Source: Streptomyces sp. V3I7
Lineage (GTDB): Bacteria > Actinomycetota > Actinomycetes > Streptomycetales > Streptomycetaceae
DNA length: 64,000 bases
NCBI RefSeq assembly: GCF_030817495.1
Contig: NZ_JAUSZK010000001.1
Span: 372,001-436,000, forward strand
Direction of reading: 5' to 3'
How positions within the stretch are numbered: position 1 is the stretch's first letter; each line of letters opens with the position of its first letter. Both the position numbers and the translations under genes were made by a program. Below, piece by piece: positions 31,289-42,413 of the stretch. Below the pieces are notes generated by a model. It had not been told where the DNA came from. It did not search any database and saw only the letters and a list, made by a program, of their open reading frames with translations.

Positions 31289-31639
31289 ATGACCGCAGGT
31301 CTCAGGACGATCATCTATCCCGTCAAGGATCTCGACCGGGCGAAGGAGCGGTTCGCCGCCCTGCTGGAAGTGGAGCCCTACGCGGACACGCCCTACTACG
31401 TCGGGTTCAAGGACGCCGGGCAGGACGTCGGGCTCGATCCGAACGGGCATGCCAAGGGGATGACCGGGCCGGTTCCGTACTGGCACGTGTCCGACATCCG
31501 GGGGCGGCTGGCGGTGCTGCTGGAGAGCGGAGCCGAGGTGCTTCAGGACGTGACGGACGTCGGGGGCGGGAGGCTGATCGCCTCGGTGACGGACCCGGAC
31601 GGCAACCTCGTGGGGCTGCTCCAGGACCCGGAGTCCTGA
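31289..31639 (+). CDS. Glyoxalase/VOC-superfamily protein
   Basis: This 116-residue, single VOC-fold domain reads LRTIIYPVKDLDRAKERFAALLEVEPY (first strand-helix) and LIASVTDPDGNLVGLLQDPES (final strand). The usual metal-binding His/Glu positions are weak, so it may be a binding protein rather than an enzyme. AAGGAG lies 10 nt before the ATG. It is followed by a MarR regulator gene 71 bp downstream. Confidence 0.85.
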   Translation: MTAGLRTIIYPVKDLDRAKERFAALLEVEPYADTPYYVGFKDAGQDVGLDPNGHAKGMTGPVPYWHVSDIRGRLAVLLESGAEVLQDVTDVGGGRLIASVTDPDGNLVGLLQDPES

Positions 31640-31710: not shown

Positions 31711-32109
31711 ATGGCAGTCAACGCGGCCGAGACCCGGCTGGAGGAGCGCTGGCGGGAGATCCTGTCGGTGCACGCTCGCACCATGTGCGAGATAGACCGG
31801 GCGCTGCACCCGCACGGGCTGGGTGCGAGCGACTTCGAGGTGCTCGACATCCTCGCCGCGGAGTCACCCCGGCAGGGCGACCAGTGCCGGGTGCAGAACC
31901 TCGTGGGGCGAGTTCATCTGAGTCAGAGCGCGCTGTCGCGGCTGATCGGCCGGCTGGAGAAGGAGGGCCTGGTCGTCCGCTCGGTCTGCGCGGAGGACCG
32001 GCGCGGGGTGTGGGTCGCCCTCACCGGCAAGGGCCGCGATCTGCACGCGGAGGTGCTGCCCCTCCAGCGCGCGGTACTGGAGCGCATGCTGTCGGCGGCG
32101 CGGGACTAG
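31711..32109 (+). CDS. MarR-family transcriptional regulator
   Basis: This 132-residue protein has the winged helix VQNLVGRVHLSQSALSRLIGRLEKEGLVVR and the wing CAEDRRGVWVALTGKGRDL. Two cysteines (Cys26 in ARTMCEI and Cys at GDQCRV) could make it redox-responsive, but this is speculative. A short CAAG-GAAG-CTTG dyad (31677-31688) precedes the start. The adjacent VOC gene is a possible target. Confidence 0.9.
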   Translation: MAVNAAETRLEERWREILSVHARTMCEIDRALHPHGLGASDFEVLDILAAESPRQGDQCRVQNLVGRVHLSQSALSRLIGRLEKEGLVVRSVCAEDRRGVWVALTGKGRDLHAEVLPLQRAVLERMLSAARD

Positions 32110-32312: not shown

Positions 32313-32723
32313 TCAGCCCGCCGGTCGTGCGAGCAGCGTGCGTACGCCCTCCGACGTGAGCGTCAGTCCGTGGTCGGAGCTGCCGTCGATGGCGAGCGAG
32401 AGTTCCTCTTCGGGCCACTGAGCGGCGAGTGCACCCAGGGGCACCATGCGGTACTGGGACACCGAGGGCAGCAGGTCGGCCATCTCCAGCTCGGACGTGA
32501 ACACCGGCACGACCGGAGCGCCGCCACCGGGCTGGTCGAGGACCGGCAGTGCCAGCAGCGACGGGTCGGCGGAGGCCGCCTCCCCGGCGTCGTCCGGCAC
32601 GGGGACGAGCACATCACTGCTCGCCAGCGTGTCGAGGGCGGCCGGGTCCTCGGCGTCCACGGCCAGCGCGTCGAGCGCCTGCCGGGCCGGCGTCGGAATG
32701 TTGTCGTTGGCGGGTGTTGCCAT
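32313..32723 (-). CDS. SseB-family protein
   Basis: This 136-residue protein matches the SseB N-terminal-domain family (LASSDVLVPVPDDAG, then VPVFTSELEMADLLPSVSQYRMVPLGALAAQWPEEELSLAIDG). The first 20 residues are Ala/Pro/Asp-rich. No catalytic motif is seen and its function in actinobacteria is unknown. ATG at 32723 has AGGGGAT upstream. It is divergent from the encapsulin gene with a 344-bp intergenic region, so the two may share regulation; whether it is a cargo or partner is untested. Confidence 0.75.
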   Translation of the reverse strand: MATPANDNIPTPARQALDALAVDAEDPAALDTLASSDVLVPVPDDAGEAASADPSLLALPVLDQPGGGAPVVPVFTSELEMADLLPSVSQYRMVPLGALAAQWPEEELSLAIDGSSDHGLTLTSEGVRTLLARPAG

Positions 32724-33067
32724 GGCAGATCCCCTGTTAGCAGTGGTGGTGCGACCCGCCCGGAACTCCGTGGTCCCGGGCGCGGTCCTGCACGAGTACC
32801 CGACCACGCCGGAGACATTCCTGCGAGTTGTCCGGCCGTGGCGGCAGTGCGTCAGGCCGCTGACCTGCGCGGCGGCGATCCGGGTACCGCCGAACGGGTG
32901 GCGGCGGTGGCACCAGGGGTGGTGCGGGAGCAGTCCCGTGCCGGACGTGCCTCGCCCGCCGTCGGAATCCATCACTCGTCGTGACGGGGCCTGGGTAGCT
33001 GTAGACACGGAGGGTGACGACACCCACCCGTGTCGTCACCGGTGCGTGCGACAGGAGAGAAGGCGAC
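32724..33067. other. 344-bp gene-free divergent region before the encapsulin gene
   Basis: No convincing coding sequence is present. Its one strong feature is the 11-bp inverted repeat at 33013-33040, close to the encapsulin start. A GAGAAGG ribosome site precedes ATG 33068. Promoters for both flanking genes must lie here but I cannot place -10/-35 elements confidently. Confidence 0.6.
33013..33040 (+). promoter_or_regulatory. 11-bp inverted repeat upstream of the encapsulin gene
   Basis: GGTGACGACAC (33013-33023) and GTGTCGTCACC (33030-33040) are perfect arms around CCACCC, 27 bp before the ATG at 33068. It could be a repressor operator, an attenuator or an mRNA-stabilising hairpin in the leader. 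Confidence 0.7.
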
Positions 33068-34483
33068 ATGTCCATCGACACCGGTACGGCGCCCCCGGCG
33101 GGCGTCGAGGAGCGGGAGCAGCAGAGCCTCGGTACCGCCGCGGCACGGAATCTGACGACGACGACCAAATCCGAACCCCAGATGCAAAAAATCAGTTCAC
33201 GGTGGCTGACGCGCATGCTGCCGTGGGTGAACGTGCCGGGCGGCACGTATCGCGTCAACCGGCGGCTGTCGTTCGTGCTGGGCGACGGGCGGGTCACGTT
33301 CGTCCAGACCGGAGGGCAGGTCACCGTGGTCCCGGCGGAGCTGGGCGAACTGCCGCCGCTGCGCTGGTTCTCGGACGGCACGGCGCTCCAGGCGCTGGCC
33401 GAGCGGTTCGAGCAGCGCGAGTACGCGCCCGGGCAGGTGATCGTGGCGGCCGGGCGGCCGGCCGACCACGTGTACCTCGTCGCGCACGGCAAGGTGGAGC
33501 GGATCGGCGAGGGGCCGTACGGCGACGAGACGGTGATCGGGCTGCTGGCGGACGGCGACACGTTCGGCGGCCGGGTGCTCGCGGACCCGGACGGCACCTG
33601 GGAGTTCACGGCCCGCGCGGCGACCGCGACGACCGTGCTGGCACTGCCGCACGCGGCGTACGCCGAGGTGGCGCGGCGCCACGACGGCCTGCGCGCGCAC
33701 GTCGAGGCGGCCCGGCTCGACGGGCACCGGCCGCTCACTCCCCAGGGCGAGGCCGAGATCGCGCTCAGCTCGGGGCATGTGGGCGAGCCCGACATCGCGG
33801 GCACGTTCGTGGACTACGAGCCGGAGCCACGTGAGTACGAACTGAGCGTCGGACAGACCGTGTTGCGCGTCCACACCCGCGTCGCCGACCTCTACAACCA
33901 GCCGATGGACCAGACGAAGGAGCAACTGAGGCTGACCGTCCACGCGTTGCGGGAGCGCCAGGAGTACGAGCTGGTCAACAACCGGGGCTTCGGGCTGTTG
34001 CACAACGCGGCCTTCGACCAGCGGATCTCGACCCGCTCCGGTCCGCCGACCCCCGACGACCTGGACGAGCTGCTGAGCATGCGGCGCAACACCAGCTTCC
34101 TGTTCGCGCATCCCCGGGCGATCGCCGCGTTCGGCCGCGAGTGCAACAAGCGCGGGCTGTACTTCGGCAGCATCGACGTGGGCGGCCACCATCTGCCCGC
34201 CTGGCGCGGGGTGCCGCTGCTGCCGTGCGGGAAGATCCCGGTCTCGGCGGGCCGTACGTCGTCGATCATCGCGATGCGTACGGGCGAGGAGGACCAGGGC
34301 GTGATCGGCCTGTTCCAGACGGGCATCCCGGACGAGGTCGAACCGGGCCTCAACGTCCGCTTCATGAACATCAACGAACAGGCGGTGATCTCGTACCTGG
34401 TGAGCACCTACTACTCGGCGGCGGTGCTGGTGCCGGACGCGCTCGGCATCCTGGAGAACGTGGAGGTCTCGCGCCGCGACTAG
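33068..34483 (+). CDS. Family 2B encapsulin shell protein with cNMP-binding-domain insertion (EshA-like)
   Basis: This 471-residue protein has an N-terminal extension (1-45), the start of an HK97-like fold (about 45-100), and an inserted CRP-type cyclic-nucleotide-binding domain (about 105-205, [23 protein letters not shown]). The remaining HK97 shell domain includes [20 protein letters not shown] and [27 protein letters not shown], and the C-terminal ENVEVSRRD closes it. This is the family 2B architecture, first known as the Streptomyces EshA particle protein. It should assemble into a 24-30 nm shell. In the nucleotide cassette [11 protein letters not shown]...ARAAT the arginine is kept, but the ribose-binding Glu of the canonical FGE is Gly. 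No terpene cyclase, prenyltransferase or cysteine desulfurase cargo gene is adjacent. Confidence 0.9.
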
Positions 34484-34506
34484 CGCCTCGCGGATCGCCG
34501 TCAACA

Positions 34507-34544
34507 CCCCGGGTATCCCTCGCTGACGCGACGGGTACCCGGGG
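34507..34544. terminator. Bidirectional terminator between encapsulin and dehydratase genes
   Basis: CCCCGGGTA (34507-34515) pairs with TACCCGGGG (34536-34544). Inner CCC/GGG and CGC/GCG pairs extend the stem to a TGAC loop. It lies between convergent genes. Confidence 0.75.
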
Positions 34545-34562
34545 CCGGTGAGGGGGCGGCCG

Positions 34563-35531
34563 TCAGCCCTGGACGATCTCGGCGAACCGCTCGGCACCGA
34601 CGTTGCCGCCGGACAGGATCACGCCGATCCGGCGGGGCAACGGGTCGATCCGCCCGGTGAGGAGCGCGGCCAGCCCGCTCGCCCCGCTCGGTTCGACGAC
34701 GGTCTTCAGCCGCTCGAAGGCGAACCGCATCGCGTCCCGGATCTGCTCGTCGTCGACCAGGGTGATGTCGTCCAGCAGCCGCTGGTTGATGGGGAAGGTG
34801 AGCTCTCCGGGTGCGGCGACGGCCTGGCCGTCGGCGATGGTGCGGGGCACGGGGACGGTGATCCGCCGGCCGGCCTCCAGGGACCGCTTGGTGTCGTCAC
34901 CGGCTTCCGGCTCGACGCCGATGACACGGATGCCGGGCAGCAGCCCGGTGGCCGCCACCGCGCTGCCGGCGGCCAGCCCGCCGCCGCCGACCGGCACGAG
35001 GAGCGCGTCCAAGTCCCCTGTCTCCTCGATGAGTTCGAGGGTCGCGGTGCCCTGCCCGGCGATCACATGGGGATGGTCGTACGGCGGGACGAGCGTCAGT
35101 CCGTGCTCGGCGGCGAGGGCTTCGCCGAGCGCGATCCGGTCGCCGGTGTAGCGGTCGTACGTGACGACCCGCGCGCCGTAGCCCATGGTCGCCTCGACCT
35201 TGGAGCGGGGCGCGTCCTCGGGCATCACGATCACGGCGGTGGTGCCCAGCTCGCGTGCGGCGAGCGCGACAGCCTGGGCGTGGTTGCCGGAGGAGTAGGC
35301 GACGACTCCCTTGGCGAGCTGCCCGGCGGACAGCCGGGAGACGGCGTTGTACGCGCCGCGGAACTTGAAGGCGCCGGCCCGCTGGAGGTTCTCGCACTTG
35401 ACGAACACCTCGGCCCCGACCAGCTCGTCCAGGGTGCGTGAGCACAGGACGGGCGTGCGGTGGACCACCGGTCCGATGCGCGCCGCGGCGTCCTGGACGT
35501 CCTGAAGGGTGACGGTCCGGCCGTCGGTCAT
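34563..35531 (-). CDS. PLP-dependent threonine/serine dehydratase (fold type II)
   Basis: This 322-residue protein has the Schiff-base lysine Lys56 in GAFKFRGAYNA, SSGNHAQAVALAA for substrate binding and the glycine loop VGGGGLAAGSAVA. There is no C-terminal ACT regulatory domain, so it resembles catabolic threonine ammonia-lyase or serine racemase rather than biosynthetic IlvA. Threonine would give 2-oxobutyrate; serine would give pyruvate or D-serine. It is convergent with the encapsulin gene. Family 2 encapsulins can carry PLP enzymes (cysteine desulfurase), but this is a different fold and no cargo-type disordered extension is seen. Confidence 0.9.
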   Translation of the reverse strand: MTDGRTVTLQDVQDAAARIGPVVHRTPVLCSRTLDELVGAEVFVKCENLQRAGAFKFRGAYNAVSRLSAGQLAKGVVAYSSGNHAQAVALAARELGTTAVIVMPEDAPRSKVEATMGYGARVVTYDRYTGDRIALGEALAAEHGLTLVPPYDHPHVIAGQGTATLELIEETGDLDALLVPVGGGGLAAGSAVAATGLLPGIRVIGVEPEAGDDTKRSLEAGRRITVPVPRTIADGQAVAAPGELTFPINQRLLDDITLVDDEQIRDAMRFAFERLKTVVEPSGASGLAALLTGRIDPLPRRIGVILSGGNVGAERFAEIVQG

Positions 35532-36843: not shown

Positions 36844-37734
36844 TCACTCCGGAGCCAGCTCGGCCGGTGGGACGGGCTGCGGCACGACGGCCACCGGGCA
36901 GGCCGAGCGGTGCAGCAACGAGTGGGCCACCAGGCTCAGTCGGAGCCCCCGGTGCCCTCCCTCGTGCCGCGCCCCGATGATCACGAGGTCAGCGGCGGCC
37001 GAGCGGTGGAGCAGGATCCGGCGGGTCGATCCCTCGGCGGCCGTACGGAGCACCCGTACGCCGGGATGCTCCGCCTCGGCTTCCTCGAGCAGTGCGTCGA
37101 TCTCAGCCAGGGCCTGCTGCTCGTGCGCGGGGGGCGGGTCCCCGGCCGCAGCGTGGTCGTCGGCGCTCGCGCGGTGCCAGACGCGGACGACGTCGAGGGC
37201 GCACCTGCGCGCCTTGGCCTCGCGGAACGCGAACCGTACGGCCGCACGGGCGGTGGTGGGGTCACCGGCGCCGAGCAGGATGCGCCCGTGGGAGCCGGCC
37301 ACCCCGGCGCGGTCGCCGCGTACGACGATCACCGGGCAGTGCGCGCGGGCGGCGACGGCCAGGTCGACGGAGCCGAGGAAAATCCCCTTGAACACCCCGC
37401 GGCCGCGCGATCCGGTCACCACGGCGAAGGCGTGGTGACCCTCGCGTACGAGGGCGTCCGCGGCCTCCTCGGGGGCGATGTCCACCGTGACCTTCACGTC
37501 CGGGTCGGCGCGGGCCGCGCGCTCGGCGGCCGCGTCCACGATCCGCGCCGTCCTGACCCGCTCGGCCTCGCCCGCCTGGCCGTTGGAGGGCGCGCCGCCC
37601 TCGTAGCGCTCCCAGAGGGAGGCGTGCACCAGCCGCAGCGGCAGCCGGTGCCGGGCGGCCTCGCCCACCGCCCAGTCGACCGCGAGCAGGCTCGGGTCCG
37701 TTCCGTCGACGCCCACGACCAGGGGAGGTGTCAT
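36844..37734 (-). CDS. Tandem universal stress protein (UspA x2)
   Basis: This 296-residue protein has two Usp domains (about 3-145 and 155-290). The first keeps the ATP-binding G-2x-G-9x-GS motif (GSRGRGVFKGIFLGSV). In the second the corresponding loop (IIGARHEGGHRGLRLSL) is degenerate, so probably only one site binds ATP. The layout matches Rv2623 and other tandem Usps. GGGAGCGGAG lies directly before the ATG. Confidence 0.92.
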   Translation of the reverse strand: MTPPLVVGVDGTDPSLLAVDWAVGEAARHRLPLRLVHASLWERYEGGAPSNGQAGEAERVRTARIVDAAAERAARADPDVKVTVDIAPEEAADALVREGHHAFAVVTGSRGRGVFKGIFLGSVDLAVAARAHCPVIVVRGDRAGVAGSHGRILLGAGDPTTARAAVRFAFREAKARRCALDVVRVWHRASADDHAAAGDPPPAHEQQALAEIDALLEEAEAEHPGVRVLRTAAEGSTRRILLHRSAAADLVIIGARHEGGHRGLRLSLVAHSLLHRSACPVAVVPQPVPPAELAPE

Positions 37735-37796
37735 CTCCGCTCCCGTCGTGTCGCCGTGCGGTCCGTCCGGGCCTCCCTCGGCCGCCGGACCCCGGC

Positions 37797-38408
37797 TCAC
37801 CCCCGCCCGCCGCTCAGGTTGCGCCACTGCGGCTCCACCCGCTTCCACTCCGCGTCCCACTCGGCCAGCCGGCGCCGGAAGAGGCACCCGCGGACCAGCC
37901 GGCCGCCGGTCCACACCATCGCGCCGGTGATCGGTGCCACGAGCACGCCGGTCAGCGCCGCCTGCACCGCCGACTCGGTCTCGGTCAGGGGCCGGGGCAC
38001 CATCCGGTCCGCACGGTCCGTCCACACCGTGACGCGGCTGCCGGCCCGGGCCCCGGCGTCGACCTCGGCGCGGCCGGTGTGGACGGTGCCGTCCGCGGAC
38101 CGCCAGCGGACCGTCTCCCAGGCCCGTCCGTCGTCGTAACCCGTCGTCGAGGACGGGGCTTTGGCGTCGCCGGTCAGCACGGCGGAGACGGTGTGCACCT
38201 GCGCGCGCCGGACGGTGAGCGTGTGGTCGACGTTCAGGGCCGCCGTCACGCCCGCGAGCGCTCCGCCGAGCACGGCGAGGACCCATGCGGCGAGCAGGAC
38301 CCAGGCCTCGACGACATCGCCGGTGCGCCGCAGCGGGTTGGTCCGCCAGCGCCACAGCCGCGCCCGGATCTCCTCGGTTCGACGTGTCCTCGTCGTCCTC
38401 GTCGTCAT
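37797..38408 (-). CDS. Rv1733c-like two-helix membrane protein
   Basis: This 203-residue protein has a basic N-terminus (RLWRWRTNPLRRTGDVVEAW), helix 1 (VLLAAWVLAVLGGALAGVTAA) and an extracytoplasmic domain of about 90 residues. Helix 2 (AALTGVLVAPITGAMVWTGG) and a cytoplasmic tail (RLAEWDAEWKRVEPQW) follow. It is a paralogue of the protein at 14248-14880. The start codon follows a CGT/CTC-type repeat encoding TTRTTRTRR. The function is unknown; the family is part of the mycobacterial dormancy regulon. Confidence 0.88.
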   Translation of the reverse strand: MTTRTTRTRRTEEIRARLWRWRTNPLRRTGDVVEAWVLLAAWVLAVLGGALAGVTAALNVDHTLTVRRAQVHTVSAVLTGDAKAPSSTTGYDDGRAWETVRWRSADGTVHTGRAEVDAGARAGSRVTVWTDRADRMVPRPLTETESAVQAALTGVLVAPITGAMVWTGGRLVRGCLFRRRLAEWDAEWKRVEPQWRNLSGGRG

Positions 38409-38486
38409 CGTTCGACGCCTCCTCGGCCGCTCCCCGCTCGCCGCCGTACCCCTCTACGCGCTCGTGTCACCTCGTACGCGCTCGTG

Positions 38487-39155
38487 TCACCTCGTGTGTG
38501 CCGGTTCCTCCGGAAGGTCGGGGTCGAGGTCGGGGACGCGGGGCGGCCCCAGGAGCGCGCAGTCGACGTCGACCACGCCCTCGACCGATCGCGTCATACG
38601 GGTCGCGACGGGAACGACATCGGTGTCGCGGACGCGGCCGCTCAGTGTCACCACCCCGTCCCGTACGTCGACCTCGATCTGTGCGGGGGTGTCCGCGAAC
38701 AGCCGCTCGACGACCTCGCGGCGCACCTCCTCGGCGATGTCCGCGTCGTCCCGCAGGAACACCTTGAGCAGGTCGGAGCGGCTGACGATGCCCTCCAGTT
38801 CGCCGTCGGGGCCGACCACGGGCAGCCGCTTCACGCCGCTGCGGGCCATGACGCGCGCCGCCTGGGCGACGGTGGCGCCGGGGTGCACGGTGACGGGCGG
38901 GGCGGTCATGAGTTCCCCGGCGGTCACCGCTCTCGCCTTGTCCGGGGCAAAGGCCGCGTCGCGGTACTCCTCCTTGCGCAGCAGGTCCGCCTCGGAGACG
39001 ACGCCGACGACCCTGCCGTCGTGGTCCAGCACCGGCAGGGCGCTGACCCGCCGGCGCCGCATGGTCCGCACGATGTCCTTGAACGCCGCACCGGTGCGCA
39101 GGGCGATGACACGGCGCGTCATCACGTCGTTCACCACGTACGGAGTGCCGTCCAT
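38487..39155 (-). CDS. CBS-pair plus BON domain protein
   Basis: This 222-residue protein has CBS 1 (about 8-65, VMTRRVIALRTGAAFKDIVRTM), CBS 2 (about 80-135, LMTAPPVTVHPGATVAQAARVM) and a C-terminal BON domain (about 150-215, IEVDVRDGVVTLSGRVRDTDVV). CBS pairs bind adenine nucleotides; BON domains bind phospholipid. It corresponds to HRP1-like (Rv2626c) dormancy proteins with an added BON. ATG at 39155 has GGGAGG 6 nt upstream. Confidence 0.9.
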   Translation of the reverse strand: MDGTPYVVNDVMTRRVIALRTGAAFKDIVRTMRRRRVSALPVLDHDGRVVGVVSEADLLRKEEYRDAAFAPDKARAVTAGELMTAPPVTVHPGATVAQAARVMARSGVKRLPVVGPDGELEGIVSRSDLLKVFLRDDADIAEEVRREVVERLFADTPAQIEVDVRDGVVTLSGRVRDTDVVPVATRMTRSVEGVVDVDCALLGPPRVPDLDPDLPEEPAHTR

Positions 39156-39388
39156 GGCGTCCTCCCGACTGCTCGGCACCGTCCCGCGACGCCTTCGGGC
39201 CGCGCCGGGGACATCGCGCGGACTCACCCGGCCCTGCCAATTGCCACGGTAATAGCCCTGGGCGCGATGCGCCTGGCCCTGCCGAGTCGCCGGGGGCGCG
39301 GTGCAATGGAAGGGGCGGGGTAGGCGGAGTACGCGGGGGCATCCGGGGGTGGGGCGCAGGTATCGGCCGCAGGCCCAGGAGGTACCGC

Positions 39389-40693
39389 ATGCGATTCGAC
39401 AACCGTACGGACGCCGGGCGCCGCCTGGCCGGGCACCTGGAGCAGCTGCGGGGCGAGGACGTCGTGGTGCTCGGGCTGCCGCGCGGCGGTGTGCCCGTGG
39501 CGTACGAGGTGGCCCGGGCGCTGGACGCGCCGCTGGACGTGCTCGTGGTGCGCAAGCTGGGCGTGCCGTGGCAGCCCGAGCTGGGGTTCGGCGCGATCGG
39601 CGAGCAGGGTGTCCGGGTGCTCAACGAGGACGTGATCCGGGACGCCGGGCTGGTCCCCGCCCAGCTGGCGCCCGTCGAGGAGGCCGAACGGGCCGAGCTG
39701 GAGCGGCGGGTGGGCCGCTACCGGGCCGGCCGCGACTGCATGTCGCTGGCCGGGCGGACGGCGGTGATCGTGGACGACGGGATCGCGACCGGCGCCACGG
39801 CCGAGGCCGCCTGCAGGGTCGTACGGGACCAGGGCGCGGCGCGCGTCGTGCTCGCGGTGCCGGTCGCGCCGGAGAGGACGCTCCCGCACCTGCGGGAGGT
39901 GGCCGACCAGGTCGTGTGCCTCCAGAGCCCGCGCTATCTCGGCTCGGTCGGTTCCTGGTACCAGGACTTCGAGCAGACCGGCGACGACGAGGTGGCCGCC
40001 CTGCTCGCGCACAGCGCGCGTCCCGCCCAGGCCCCACCGCCCCCGCCGAACCGCGAGGTCGAGGTCCCGGCCGGGCGGGCGCGCCTGGCGGCGCGGTTCG
40101 TGCTGCCCGAGGGCGCGCGGGGCGTGGTGGCGTTCGCGCACGGCAGCGGGAGCAGCCGCAACAGCCCGCGCAACCGGTACGTGGCCACCGTCCTGAACCG
40201 GGCCGGGCTCGGCACGCTGCTGCTCGATCTGCTCACCCAGGACGAGGAGGGCGACCGGTACAACGTCTTCGACATCTCCCTGCTGGCCGAGCGCCTGCGG
40301 GACGCGTCCGCGTGGCTGCGCCGTGAAACCGCGCTGCCCGTCGGCTACTTCGGTGCGAGTACCGGCGCGGGCGCGGCTCTGGAGGCGGCCGCCGACGATC
40401 CGGGCATCGCCGCGGTCGTCTCGCGCGGCGGCCGGCCCGACCTCGCCTCCCCCGCAGCGCTGGCCCGGGTCCAGGCCCCGACGCTGCTGATCGTCGGCAG
40501 CAGCGACACCCGGGTGCTGAGCCTCAACCAGCTCGCCGCCGACCAGATGCGCTGCGAGCACCGGATCGCGGTGGTGCCCGGCGCCGGGCACCTGTTCGAA
40601 GAGCCCGGCACCCTGGCCGAGGTCGCCGTGCTGGCCCGCGACTGGTTCACCGAGCACCTCGGACTCCCGGACACCGGGCCGCCGCCGGCCTGA
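39389..40693 (+). CDS. Phosphoribosyltransferase-dienelactone hydrolase fusion
   Basis: This 434-residue protein has two domains. An N-terminal type I PRTase (about 1-210) carries the PRPP loop VIVDDGIATGATAEAA. A C-terminal alpha/beta hydrolase (about 220-425) has nucleophile GASTGAG, acid in GSSDTRVL and His in PGAGHLFEE. A Pro-rich linker (QAPPPPPNRE) separates them. The same fusion occurs in the mycobacterial dormancy-associated Rv0571c family. The real substrate is unknown. It is divergent from the CBS-BON gene. Confidence 0.9.
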   Translation: MRFDNRTDAGRRLAGHLEQLRGEDVVVLGLPRGGVPVAYEVARALDAPLDVLVVRKLGVPWQPELGFGAIGEQGVRVLNEDVIRDAGLVPAQLAPVEEAERAELERRVGRYRAGRDCMSLAGRTAVIVDDGIATGATAEAACRVVRDQGAARVVLAVPVAPERTLPHLREVADQVVCLQSPRYLGSVGSWYQDFEQTGDDEVAALLAHSARPAQAPPPPPNREVEVPAGRARLAARFVLPEGARGVVAFAHGSGSSRNSPRNRYVATVLNRAGLGTLLLDLLTQDEEGDRYNVFDISLLAERLRDASAWLRRETALPVGYFGASTGAGAALEAAADDPGIAAVVSRGGRPDLASPAALARVQAPTLLIVGSSDTRVLSLNQLAADQMRCEHRIAVVPGAGHLFEEPGTLAEVAVLARDWFTEHLGLPDTGPPPA

Positions 40694-40817
40694 GCCGGGC
40701 AGCGGCCGGGCGGGGCATGTCCGTTCGGCGGAGCGGCGCGCGACGATGGAGCTGGGGGAATCGGCAGCGGGCGGCTTCCCTCGGGTCCGGGAGGAGCCGG
40801 AGGGCGAGGCGAGTGCG

Positions 40818-41969
40818 ATGGACGAGTCGCTGTCACTCGGCCGGATCGCCGGCGTACGCGTCGGCCTGCACTGGAGCGTGCTGGTCATCGTGGCGCTGGT
40901 CGCGGTCCTCCTGGCGCGCGGCCGCTTCCCGAGCGCCCACCCCGGCTACTCCCCCGCCCTGTACTGGGTGGTCGCGCTGCTCACCTCGGTGGTCTTCCTC
41001 GCCTCGCTGCTGGTGCACGAGCTGGCGCACGCGGTGGTGGCCCGGCGCAACGGCGTCCAGGTCGACGGGATCACGCTGTGGATGCTCGGCGGCGCGGCCC
41101 GGCTGCGCGGCGAGGCGCCGACGCCGGGCGCGGAGCTGCGGATCGCTGGCGTGGGGCCGCTCACCAGCGCGCTGGCCGGGGGTGTGCTGGTCGGGCTGAC
41201 GTGGGGGCTGGAGGTGCTGCACGCGCCGGGGCTGGTGGTGGAGGCGGTGGCGTGGCTGGCCGCGATCAACCTCGTGCTGGCCGTGTTCAACGCGCTGCCC
41301 GCCGCTCCGCTGGACGGCGGCCGGATCCTGCGGGCGTTCTTGTGGCACCGCACCGGCGACCGTCTGCGGGCGACCCGGGGCGCGTCGGCGGCGGGCCGGG
41401 TGCTGGGCTGGCTCATGGTGCTGACCGGCCTGGCCGCGGTGCTGTTCGCCCGCGACCTCTCGGGGCTGTGGGGTGCCCTGATCGGCTGGTTCCTCATCAC
41501 GACGGCGGGCGCCGAGGCCCGGCACGCCGAGCTGCACAGCGCCCTGGACGGCGTGTCCGTCGGCCGGGTCATGACGCCCGACCCGGTCACCGTGCCGTAC
41601 GCCACGACCATCGACGCCTTCCTGGCCGAGGGCCCCTTCGGGCCCTACCGGCACTCGGCCTTCCCCGTACTGGCGCCGGACGGCACGGTGGCCGGGCTGA
41701 TCACCATGGACCAGGTCAACCGGACGTCGCCGAAGATGCGTTACCGCACGACGGTCGGTGACGAGATGAGGCCGCTGTCCGACGTGGTGACGGCCGCGCC
41801 CGGCGATCCGGTCGTGGACCTCGTGCCACGTCTGCACACGAGTCCGGTCCGCACGGCGCTGGTCGTGGAGGGCGACGACGTCGTCGGCATCGTCACCCTC
41901 AACGACGTCAACCGCGCGCTGACCTGGCCGACCGCCGCTCGCCGCAAGCAGCCCGAGCCGCCTTCATGA
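40818..41969 (+). CDS. Rip3-like site-2 (M50) intramembrane metalloprotease with CBS domains
   Basis: This 383-residue protein has about six helices with zinc motif HELAH (SLLVHELAHAVVARR). The second M50 motif is ALPAAPLDGGRILRAFLW. A C-terminal CBS pair follows (VGRVMTPDPVTVPYATTIDAFL, then EMRPLSDVVTAAPGDPVV). M50B-CBS proteases cleave membrane proteins, often anti-sigma factors, under nucleotide control. It corresponds to Rv2625c of the mycobacterial dormancy regulon. The stop overlaps the convergent UspA gene by 6 bp. Confidence 0.92.
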   Translation: MDESLSLGRIAGVRVGLHWSVLVIVALVAVLLARGRFPSAHPGYSPALYWVVALLTSVVFLASLLVHELAHAVVARRNGVQVDGITLWMLGGAARLRGEAPTPGAELRIAGVGPLTSALAGGVLVGLTWGLEVLHAPGLVVEAVAWLAAINLVLAVFNALPAAPLDGGRILRAFLWHRTGDRLRATRGASAAGRVLGWLMVLTGLAAVLFARDLSGLWGALIGWFLITTAGAEARHAELHSALDGVSVGRVMTPDPVTVPYATTIDAFLAEGPFGPYRHSAFPVLAPDGTVAGLITMDQVNRTSPKMRYRTTVGDEMRPLSDVVTAAPGDPVVDLVPRLHTSPVRTALVVEGDDVVGIVTLNDVNRALTWPTAARRKQPEPPS

Positions 41970-42413
41970 CATCGCCTGCTCGGCGCGCACGATCACCACG
42001 GGGCACTTGGCGTGCTGCGCCACGTGCTGGCTGACCGACCCGAGCAGTGCCCGTGCGAACCCGCCCCGGCCGTGGCTGCCGACGACCAGGACCTCGGCTT
42101 CTTCACTCGCCCTGAGCAGCACGTCGACGGGGTGGCCGCGTACCAGCAACGCCCGGACGGGGGCGGCCGATTCGGGGCCCAGCGTCTGCGCGAGCTCCTC
42201 GGTCAGCCACGCCCGGGCGTTCTCCTCGTCGAGATCGGCGTCGACCGCCGGGGCCGACCAGCTCTCCTGACCGGGCACCTCCCACACGGCGACCGCGTCC
42301 ACCTCGGCGCCGACGAGACCGGCGTACCGTTCCGCCCAGCGCAGCGCCGCCTGCGAGGACGGCGATCCGTCGACGCCGACCACGACCCGCGGGCCCAAGA
42401 CTTCCCCGTCCAT
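41964..42413 (-). CDS. Universal stress protein UspA family (single domain)
   Basis: This 149-residue protein has the first strand VVVGVDGSPSSQAALRWA and an intact ATP-binding motif GSHGRGGFARALLGSVSQH near 120. It should bind ATP and dimerise. GGAGAGG precedes the ATG at 42413. It ends the dormancy-type group and is convergent with the M50 protease gene. Confidence 0.93.
   Translation of the reverse strand: MDGEVLGPRVVVGVDGSPSSQAALRWAERYAGLVGAEVDAVAVWEVPGQESWSAPAVDADLDEENARAWLTEELAQTLGPESAAPVRALLVRGHPVDVLLRASEEAEVLVVGSHGRGGFARALLGSVSQHVAQHAKCPVVIVRAEQAMS

Follow-up and report, generated by a model that had tools for sequence, protein, structure and literature searches.

A solitary Family 2B encapsulin shell gene in Streptomyces, probably derived from a terpene cyclase operon

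The shell gene and its surroundings

The window, by which we mean the whole 64,000-nucleotide stretch of Streptomyces sp. V3I7 DNA analysed here, encodes a Family 2B encapsulin shell protein, a kind that encloses minute compartments of viral origin. It is 471 aa long and is encoded on the forward strand at 33068..34483, starting with an ATG that is preceded by aggagag, a likely ribosome-binding site. The protein scores 748 bits against NF041163, the NCBIfam model of Family 2B shells (cut-off 400), and solved 2B shells align with it nearly end to end (9bhu_A, E 3e-192, residues 9-467 of the window shell). Between the two shell parts lies an inserted cyclic-nucleotide-binding-type domain (PF00027, 59.3 bits; residues 116-204, 33416..33682, forward strand), and the C-terminal HK97-fold, SrpI-like shell domain follows at residues 221-467 (PF19307; 33731..34471, forward strand); the Pfam residue numbers refer to the 470 residues searched. 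The window shell reads FGG where 9bhu has FGE, and according to the discussion of PMC12407261 cyclic nucleotides are not bound by the domain inserted in 2B shells. These matches bear out the preliminary description of an intact 2B shell with an internal domain of this type, although its start at 32724 was placed 344 bases too early: that position is the first base past the divergent SseB gene, and the earlier span takes in the whole intergenic region. The Family 2B assignment is in itself ordinary. The protein probably still forms a closed shell and still has a function.

The neighbours are as previously described. An SseB-domain protein (PF07179) is encoded divergently at 32313..32723 on the reverse strand, a PALP-fold enzyme of the threo-3-hydroxy-L-aspartate ammonia-lyase family (NF005454, 454 bits against a cut-off of 452) convergently at 34563..35531 on the reverse strand, and a two-domain acyl-CoA thioesterase is also present. 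Since SseB is divergent and the PALP enzyme, 79 bases off, convergent, the shell gene apparently makes up a unit by itself. Two syntenic markers of the locus, recognised with Pfam, lie on the forward strand: a glyoxalase-fold gene at 31289-31639 (searched from 31157) and a MarR-type regulator at 31711-32109. With SseB, PALP, thioesterase, glyoxalase and MarR families as the neighbours, the earlier view that no known-type cargo gene lies beside the shell holds. Further downstream, at 36844-42413, a run of genes of universal-stress, CBS-domain, phosphoribosyltransferase and site-2-protease types resembles, by eye, a dormancy or stress cluster.

On the forward strand upstream of the shell gene, a stretch at 32971..33022 contains partly conserved blocks (TCACTC, GTGAC, GGGTAG and GTGACG, picked by eye in an upstream alignment of 19 orthologues) that look similar in shell-only and cargo-bearing loci. 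The blocks are perhaps a promoter or operator, and a simple scan of the stretch found no sigma-70-type promoter. An 11-bp perfect inverted repeat at 33013..33040 (forward strand), in the leader just 5' of the ribosome-binding site, was matched in length by 0 of 200 shuffles and has a fold z of -2.6; a GGTGACG-type repeat occurs at three of the six shell-only loci (the window, L038 and L039), and the other three have a different or no clear repeat. Downstream, the 79-base junction between the shell and PALP genes (34484..34562) is the site that the cyclase and the GPP methyltransferase occupy in cargo-bearing relatives. It holds a strong hairpin at 34507-34544, which has no T-run and so was not called a terminator by the scan, and no remnant of a cyclase or methyltransferase gene was found in it.

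Orthologous loci with and without the enzymes

An orthologue of the shell (E <= 1e-228) was found in 19 of 392 Streptomyces genomes, the window's own included, and regions of up to 20 kb were compared for the 18 relatives, giving 19 loci with the window. At 13 of the 19 the order is shell, cyclase, GPP methyltransferase, and matches to the cyclase model NF041167 adjoin the shell in all 13 of these cargo-bearing loci; the methyltransferase family was assigned by profile on the L041 copy. The other six (the window, L038, L039, L040, L058 and L059) are shell-only: tblastn (E <= 0.01) found no cyclase, methyltransferase or polyprenyl transferase in any of them, nor relatives of these three anywhere in the 64-kb window, and recovered both enzymes from the controls L041 and L060. 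Neighbourhood labels came from a codon-statistics gene caller and BLAST, with tblastn as a check on the six shell-only loci, L041, L060, seven further loci, 80 named loci and, in part, L038-L057. Among the 80 of 270 named loci covered, at least five more shell-only loci were found, all with a junction between shell and PfkB (Streptomyces sp. STR69, S. hokutonensis, sp. NRRL F-525, sp. MBT65 and S. xylophagus); a sixth such match, MBT53, duplicates the DNA of L058. Assemblies also coincide for some of the named records (L159, L163, L165, L166, L171 and L172), and the L161 sequence stops 1 kb past its shell.

The window's upstream order of glyoxalase, MarR and SseB recurs at L041 and L060, whose shells are 81% and 76% identical to the window's and which carry both enzymes; the glyoxalase and MarR markers are present at the shell-only window, L038, L039 and L059 as well as at these two cargo-bearing loci. 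A metallo-beta-lactamase-fold gene and an unnamed 370-aa gene of L038 and L039 are likewise found in L060. These syntenic relatives have the cyclase and methyltransferase exactly where the window has nothing, and the window site thus reads as a cargo-bearing site minus the enzyme genes. We infer that the change was a loss of enzymes and not a gain, because the shell-only rows nest among the cargo-bearing ones in the shell tree. The junctions left behind differ: the shell is followed by PALP in the window, MerR in L038, isochorismatase in L039 and L059, and PfkB in L040 and L058.

Cyclases of the window's shell type reach far beyond the model match at the N-terminus, and this long extension, examined at loci on the read strand, includes GPTGLGTSAAR-like motifs, a motif type proposed in PMC8346489 to act in cargo targeting. 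The N-terminal arm of the window shell (33125-33148) itself reads SLGTAAAR, near the GLGTSAAR of matching cyclases at the TC loci L066, L068, L070 and L072, a likeness in which the cargo might mimic the shell arm.

The preliminary description had proposed that a neighbour could be a new cargo or partner, and that a comparison of neighbourhoods might expose a conserved one. No conserved flanking partner emerged, although SseB does lie near the shell at some loci. All three neighbours adjoin the shell in the window, and SseB is near it at shell-only L039 and L059 and at cargo-bearing L041 and L060, with further cargo-bearing cases in the named genomes L167, L169 and L173; L038 and L039 also have the PALP enzyme close to the shell. 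Across the six shell-only loci, however, SseB is near the shell in only three, PALP in three and the thioesterase in one, and a GLGTSAAR-type N-terminal extension, the candidate targeting segment, is found in none of the three proteins. SseB is also present in 172 of 384 Streptomyces genomes (E <= 1e-25), against 19 of 392 for the shell orthologue, and in L152 it has persisted although the shell has gone; SseB marks the place and is not a dedicated partner, and its presence near cargo-bearing shells can be read as shared ancestry of the site. That any of these three neighbours serves as a new cargo or partner is therefore very improbable.

Decay has also run in the opposite direction. L152 (genome G022) keeps MarR, SseB, cyclase and methyltransferase and gave no shell match by tblastn, and L153 (G040) retains cyclase and methyltransferase next to a shell shortened to 296 aa; the enzymes can thus persist without an intact neighbouring shell. 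In a second shell lineage (L048, L049 and L050) the adjacent cyclase is absent too, the methyltransferase is retained in L049 and L050, and L050 has a polyprenyl transferase (47% identical to the query) about 7 kb away. More broadly, among the matches listed for 57 genomes, 110 shells include at least 43 near a PT, 34 near a TC and 33 near neither, the last comprising 18 paired and 15 single shells, so that shells away from both are not rare in this sample. This count includes partial shells and one below-cut-off match (G011:C12) and excludes G000, G098 and G101, which were added on purpose; PT labels use over-cut-off matches, and one of six weaker matches checked lies near a single shell (G006:C2).

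Two further groups were seen in this survey. Lower-scoring single 2B shells (about 620-656 bits), with neither a TC nor an over-cut-off PT in the surrounding 10 kb, occur at G036:C1:1760243, G048:C69:36052, G049:C1:10128792, G060:C6:143941, G018:C2:108782, G001:C590:116176 and G035:C1:865275, and are perhaps another shell type with cargo so far unassigned. Family 2 shells whose match to the 2B model does not extend into the nucleotide-binding domain were found at L154:9650-10588 (G068, 312 aa), G183:C543:88430-89299 and G011:C12:278577-279290, and are possibly Family 2A.

Selection on the shell and candidate cargo in trans

The shell reading frame is intact in all 11 shell-only genomes. At 141 positions that are invariant in 26 other shells (13 cargo-bearing and 13 others) the window changes two, and the other shell-only rows between none and two. 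Under the codon model, the 13 cargo-bearing shells have an omega of 0.135 and the first six shell-only shells one of 0.140; by region, the shell domain gives 0.090 in cargo-bearing and a slightly higher 0.109 in shell-only loci (all six rows), and the inserted domain 0.211 and 0.173, respectively. When pairs are counted, the window shell has omegas of 0.26-0.31 with the five remaining shell-only shells, towards the top of the range for shell-only pairs (0.17-0.32) and within the cargo-bearing range (0.18-0.38).

In the shell tree the six shell-only proteins cluster together (79/80) inside the cyclase-type clade. A proxy species tree, built from one gene (the polyprenyl-transferase shell), leaves the shell-only species ungrouped and needs three state changes; its first version was discarded for having loci in mixed orientation. 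There may thus have been several cargo losses, and the window's may be recent. Because the junctions differ and the proxy tree needs three changes, the clean test of selection is within a single junction. The seven genomes that share the shell-PfkB junction give a shell omega of 0.105, and the shells of this clade are under strong purifying selection; as they were constrained after the deletion, the shell there functions without adjacent cargo. The window's shell-PALP junction is unlike those of its relatives, which leaves its own enzyme loss undated, and the constraint is demonstrated for the shell-PfkB clade.

The window genome (G000) carries a second 2B shell at C1:4528897, 4.1 Mb away and 64% identical to the window shell by BLAST, which is followed by an NF041169 polyprenyl transferase (locus L006). 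Among the matches listed for NF041169 in this genome, the one beside the second shell exceeds the cut-off, and another, at 403.6 of 450 bits, falls short of it. The genome also has one NF041167 cyclase, of 2-methylisoborneol type, at C1:269277 together with a GPP methyltransferase. The encapsulin that belonged to this cyclase is reduced to short colinear fragments (L007:6690-7232, at about 269 kb of C1) within the 542-base gap that runs from the end of an alcohol dehydrogenase gene to the cyclase start; three fragments have E <= 0.003 and two are weaker, and a repeat search again gave three. In G101, the equivalent gap is shorter (225 bases) and no shell remnant was found in it. A 2-methylisoborneol-type cyclase, a class assigned by BLAST label or score band, occurs in 10 of the 11 shell-only genomes, G068 being without any NF041167 match, and has its own adjacent shell in eight of the 10, the exceptions being the window genome and G101. 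Because eight of 10 such cyclases have their own shell and G068 has none of the cyclase, serving it is not the general reason for shell retention, but it may be so in these two genomes.

Several candidates for cargo encoded elsewhere were tried and set aside. The exact pattern GLGTxA(A/V)R, which finds only 11 of 16 control cyclase loci and so has limited sensitivity, has two matches in G000, both of them out of frame with any called gene, and over six genomes it gave 15 matches against 21 for a backwards control. Geosmin synthases, present in six shell-only genomes, reach 1126-1150 bits on the encapsulin-cargo model, short of its cut-off of 1200, and their matches stop at about position 715 of 735. 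A truncated targeting N-terminus on the shell-less 2-methylisoborneol-type cyclase was dismissed, shelled copies being equally short. Convergence of the orphan shell on the MIBS-type shell was rejected as well: at 55 differing sites the window is TC-like at 46, MIBS-like at four and otherwise at five, and cargo-bearing L041 is TC-like at 45, MIBS-like at four and otherwise at six. Finally, an association of shell-less cyclase with orphan shell was weak by hand count (2/5 versus 0 or 1/17 in the genomes examined at first, one shell being damaged) and was dropped when the addition of five genomes made it 2/10 in orphan-shell genomes.

Origin and possible role, with comparison to known encapsulins

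The ancestor of the locus would have been an operon of a Family 2B shell, an NF041167-type terpene cyclase and a geranyl-diphosphate 2-C-methyltransferase, from which the enzyme genes would have been deleted and the shell gene retained. That the window shell descends from such a terpene cyclase operon in this way is, on the comparison of loci, highly probable, and the job of the retained shell probably does not need the terpene cargo. Whether it represents a stable class of solitary 2B shells that have shed their cargo and have a function of their own or a second, unrecognised cargo, with shell and enzyme separable, we regard as evenly balanced; such shells are intact in at least 11 Streptomyces genomes, and selection on them is demonstrated in the seven-genome clade.

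Several accounts of the present role can be weighed against each other. The leading one, a tentative one, is that the shell encloses an as yet unrecognised protein whose gene lies elsewhere. Second in order, and somewhat unlikely, is that it joins the shell of the polyprenyl-transferase locus in trans to form a mixed compartment, altering that particle: a second full 2B shell with its transferase, 64% identical, is at hand in the same genome, and PMC12407261 reports that two-component 2B shells co-assemble in S. lydicus, but the published shell pairs lie within 10 kb of each other, and with at least 43 of the 110 shells of the 57 genomes located by such a transferase, its presence here tells little. 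The remaining probability is divided among a cargo-free role, service to the shell-less 2-methylisoborneol-type cyclase and slow decay in the window lineage. In the last case the gene would be a functionless remnant on its way out, in keeping with a locus that decays in several ways across species and a window loss that is undated; the intact frame, the conserved invariant sites and the low omega of the seven-genome clade after its deletion make this unlikely.

EshA-type shells were first described in Streptomyces as a developmental protein, and EshA was once ascribed effects on development and ppGpp. A comparable role without cargo, with which the retention of a shell by G068 in the absence of any NF041167 cyclase would agree, seems to us no more probable than slow decay, as the 2B shells described in PMC8346489 are linked to cargo enzymes. 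In S. griseus, EshA (SgEnc) is found with 2-methylisoborneol synthase, and a paper is said to have renamed EshA as the 2-methylisoborneol-synthase shell. For the window shell to house the genome's 2-methylisoborneol-type cyclase in trans, replacing its degraded shell, would fit the fragmentary shell beside the G000 cyclase, the same pairing of shell-less cyclase and orphan shell in G101, and the N-terminal LPGPPN block that both cyclases keep. We consider it quite improbable nonetheless, given the cyclases that have an adjacent shell of their own, the lack of any NF041167 match in G068, and orphan shells that show no shift toward the cyclase's native shell type at the 55 differing sites.

Encapsulins are described by their cargo, and a shell kept after loss of the adjacent cargo is a natural experiment on the shell's own role, with relatives in which the enzymes outlasted the shell as its counterpart. 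The old question of what EshA-type shells do besides holding a terpene cyclase becomes testable, and the locus is a warning that the gene next door does not always reveal the cargo. In the literature on encapsulins with gene loss or orphan shells, with subscription papers mostly outside its scope, we found no account of cargo-shed 2B shells. PMC8346489 gives the Family 2 cargo types as TC, PT, CD and XK and uses 'orphan' once, for Family 4, PMC8049743 also describes 2B shells beside terpenoid genes, and two-component operons without obvious cargo are noted in PMC12407261.

Compared with the terpene-cyclase-operon 2B encapsulins described in PMC8346489, the window has the same shell family and domain layout, the same ancestral operon and relatives with the same GPTGLGTSAAR-type cyclase N-terminus, but it is without an adjacent cyclase and methyltransferase, and no in-frame protein with the exact GLGTxA(A/V)R pattern was found in its genome. 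The polyprenyl-transferase 2B locus of the same genome, L006, shares the domain layout and, in contrast to the window shell, is still beside its NF041169 cargo. The S. lydicus two-component encapsulin, as reported in PMC12407261, likewise has 2B shells and more than one per cell, whereas the window has a single shell gene, with the second shell megabases away; relative to that report, cargo-operon ancestry and selection after the loss are here worked out for window-type shells. What is unusual is a selected, cargo-shed state with related loci that have decayed the other way.
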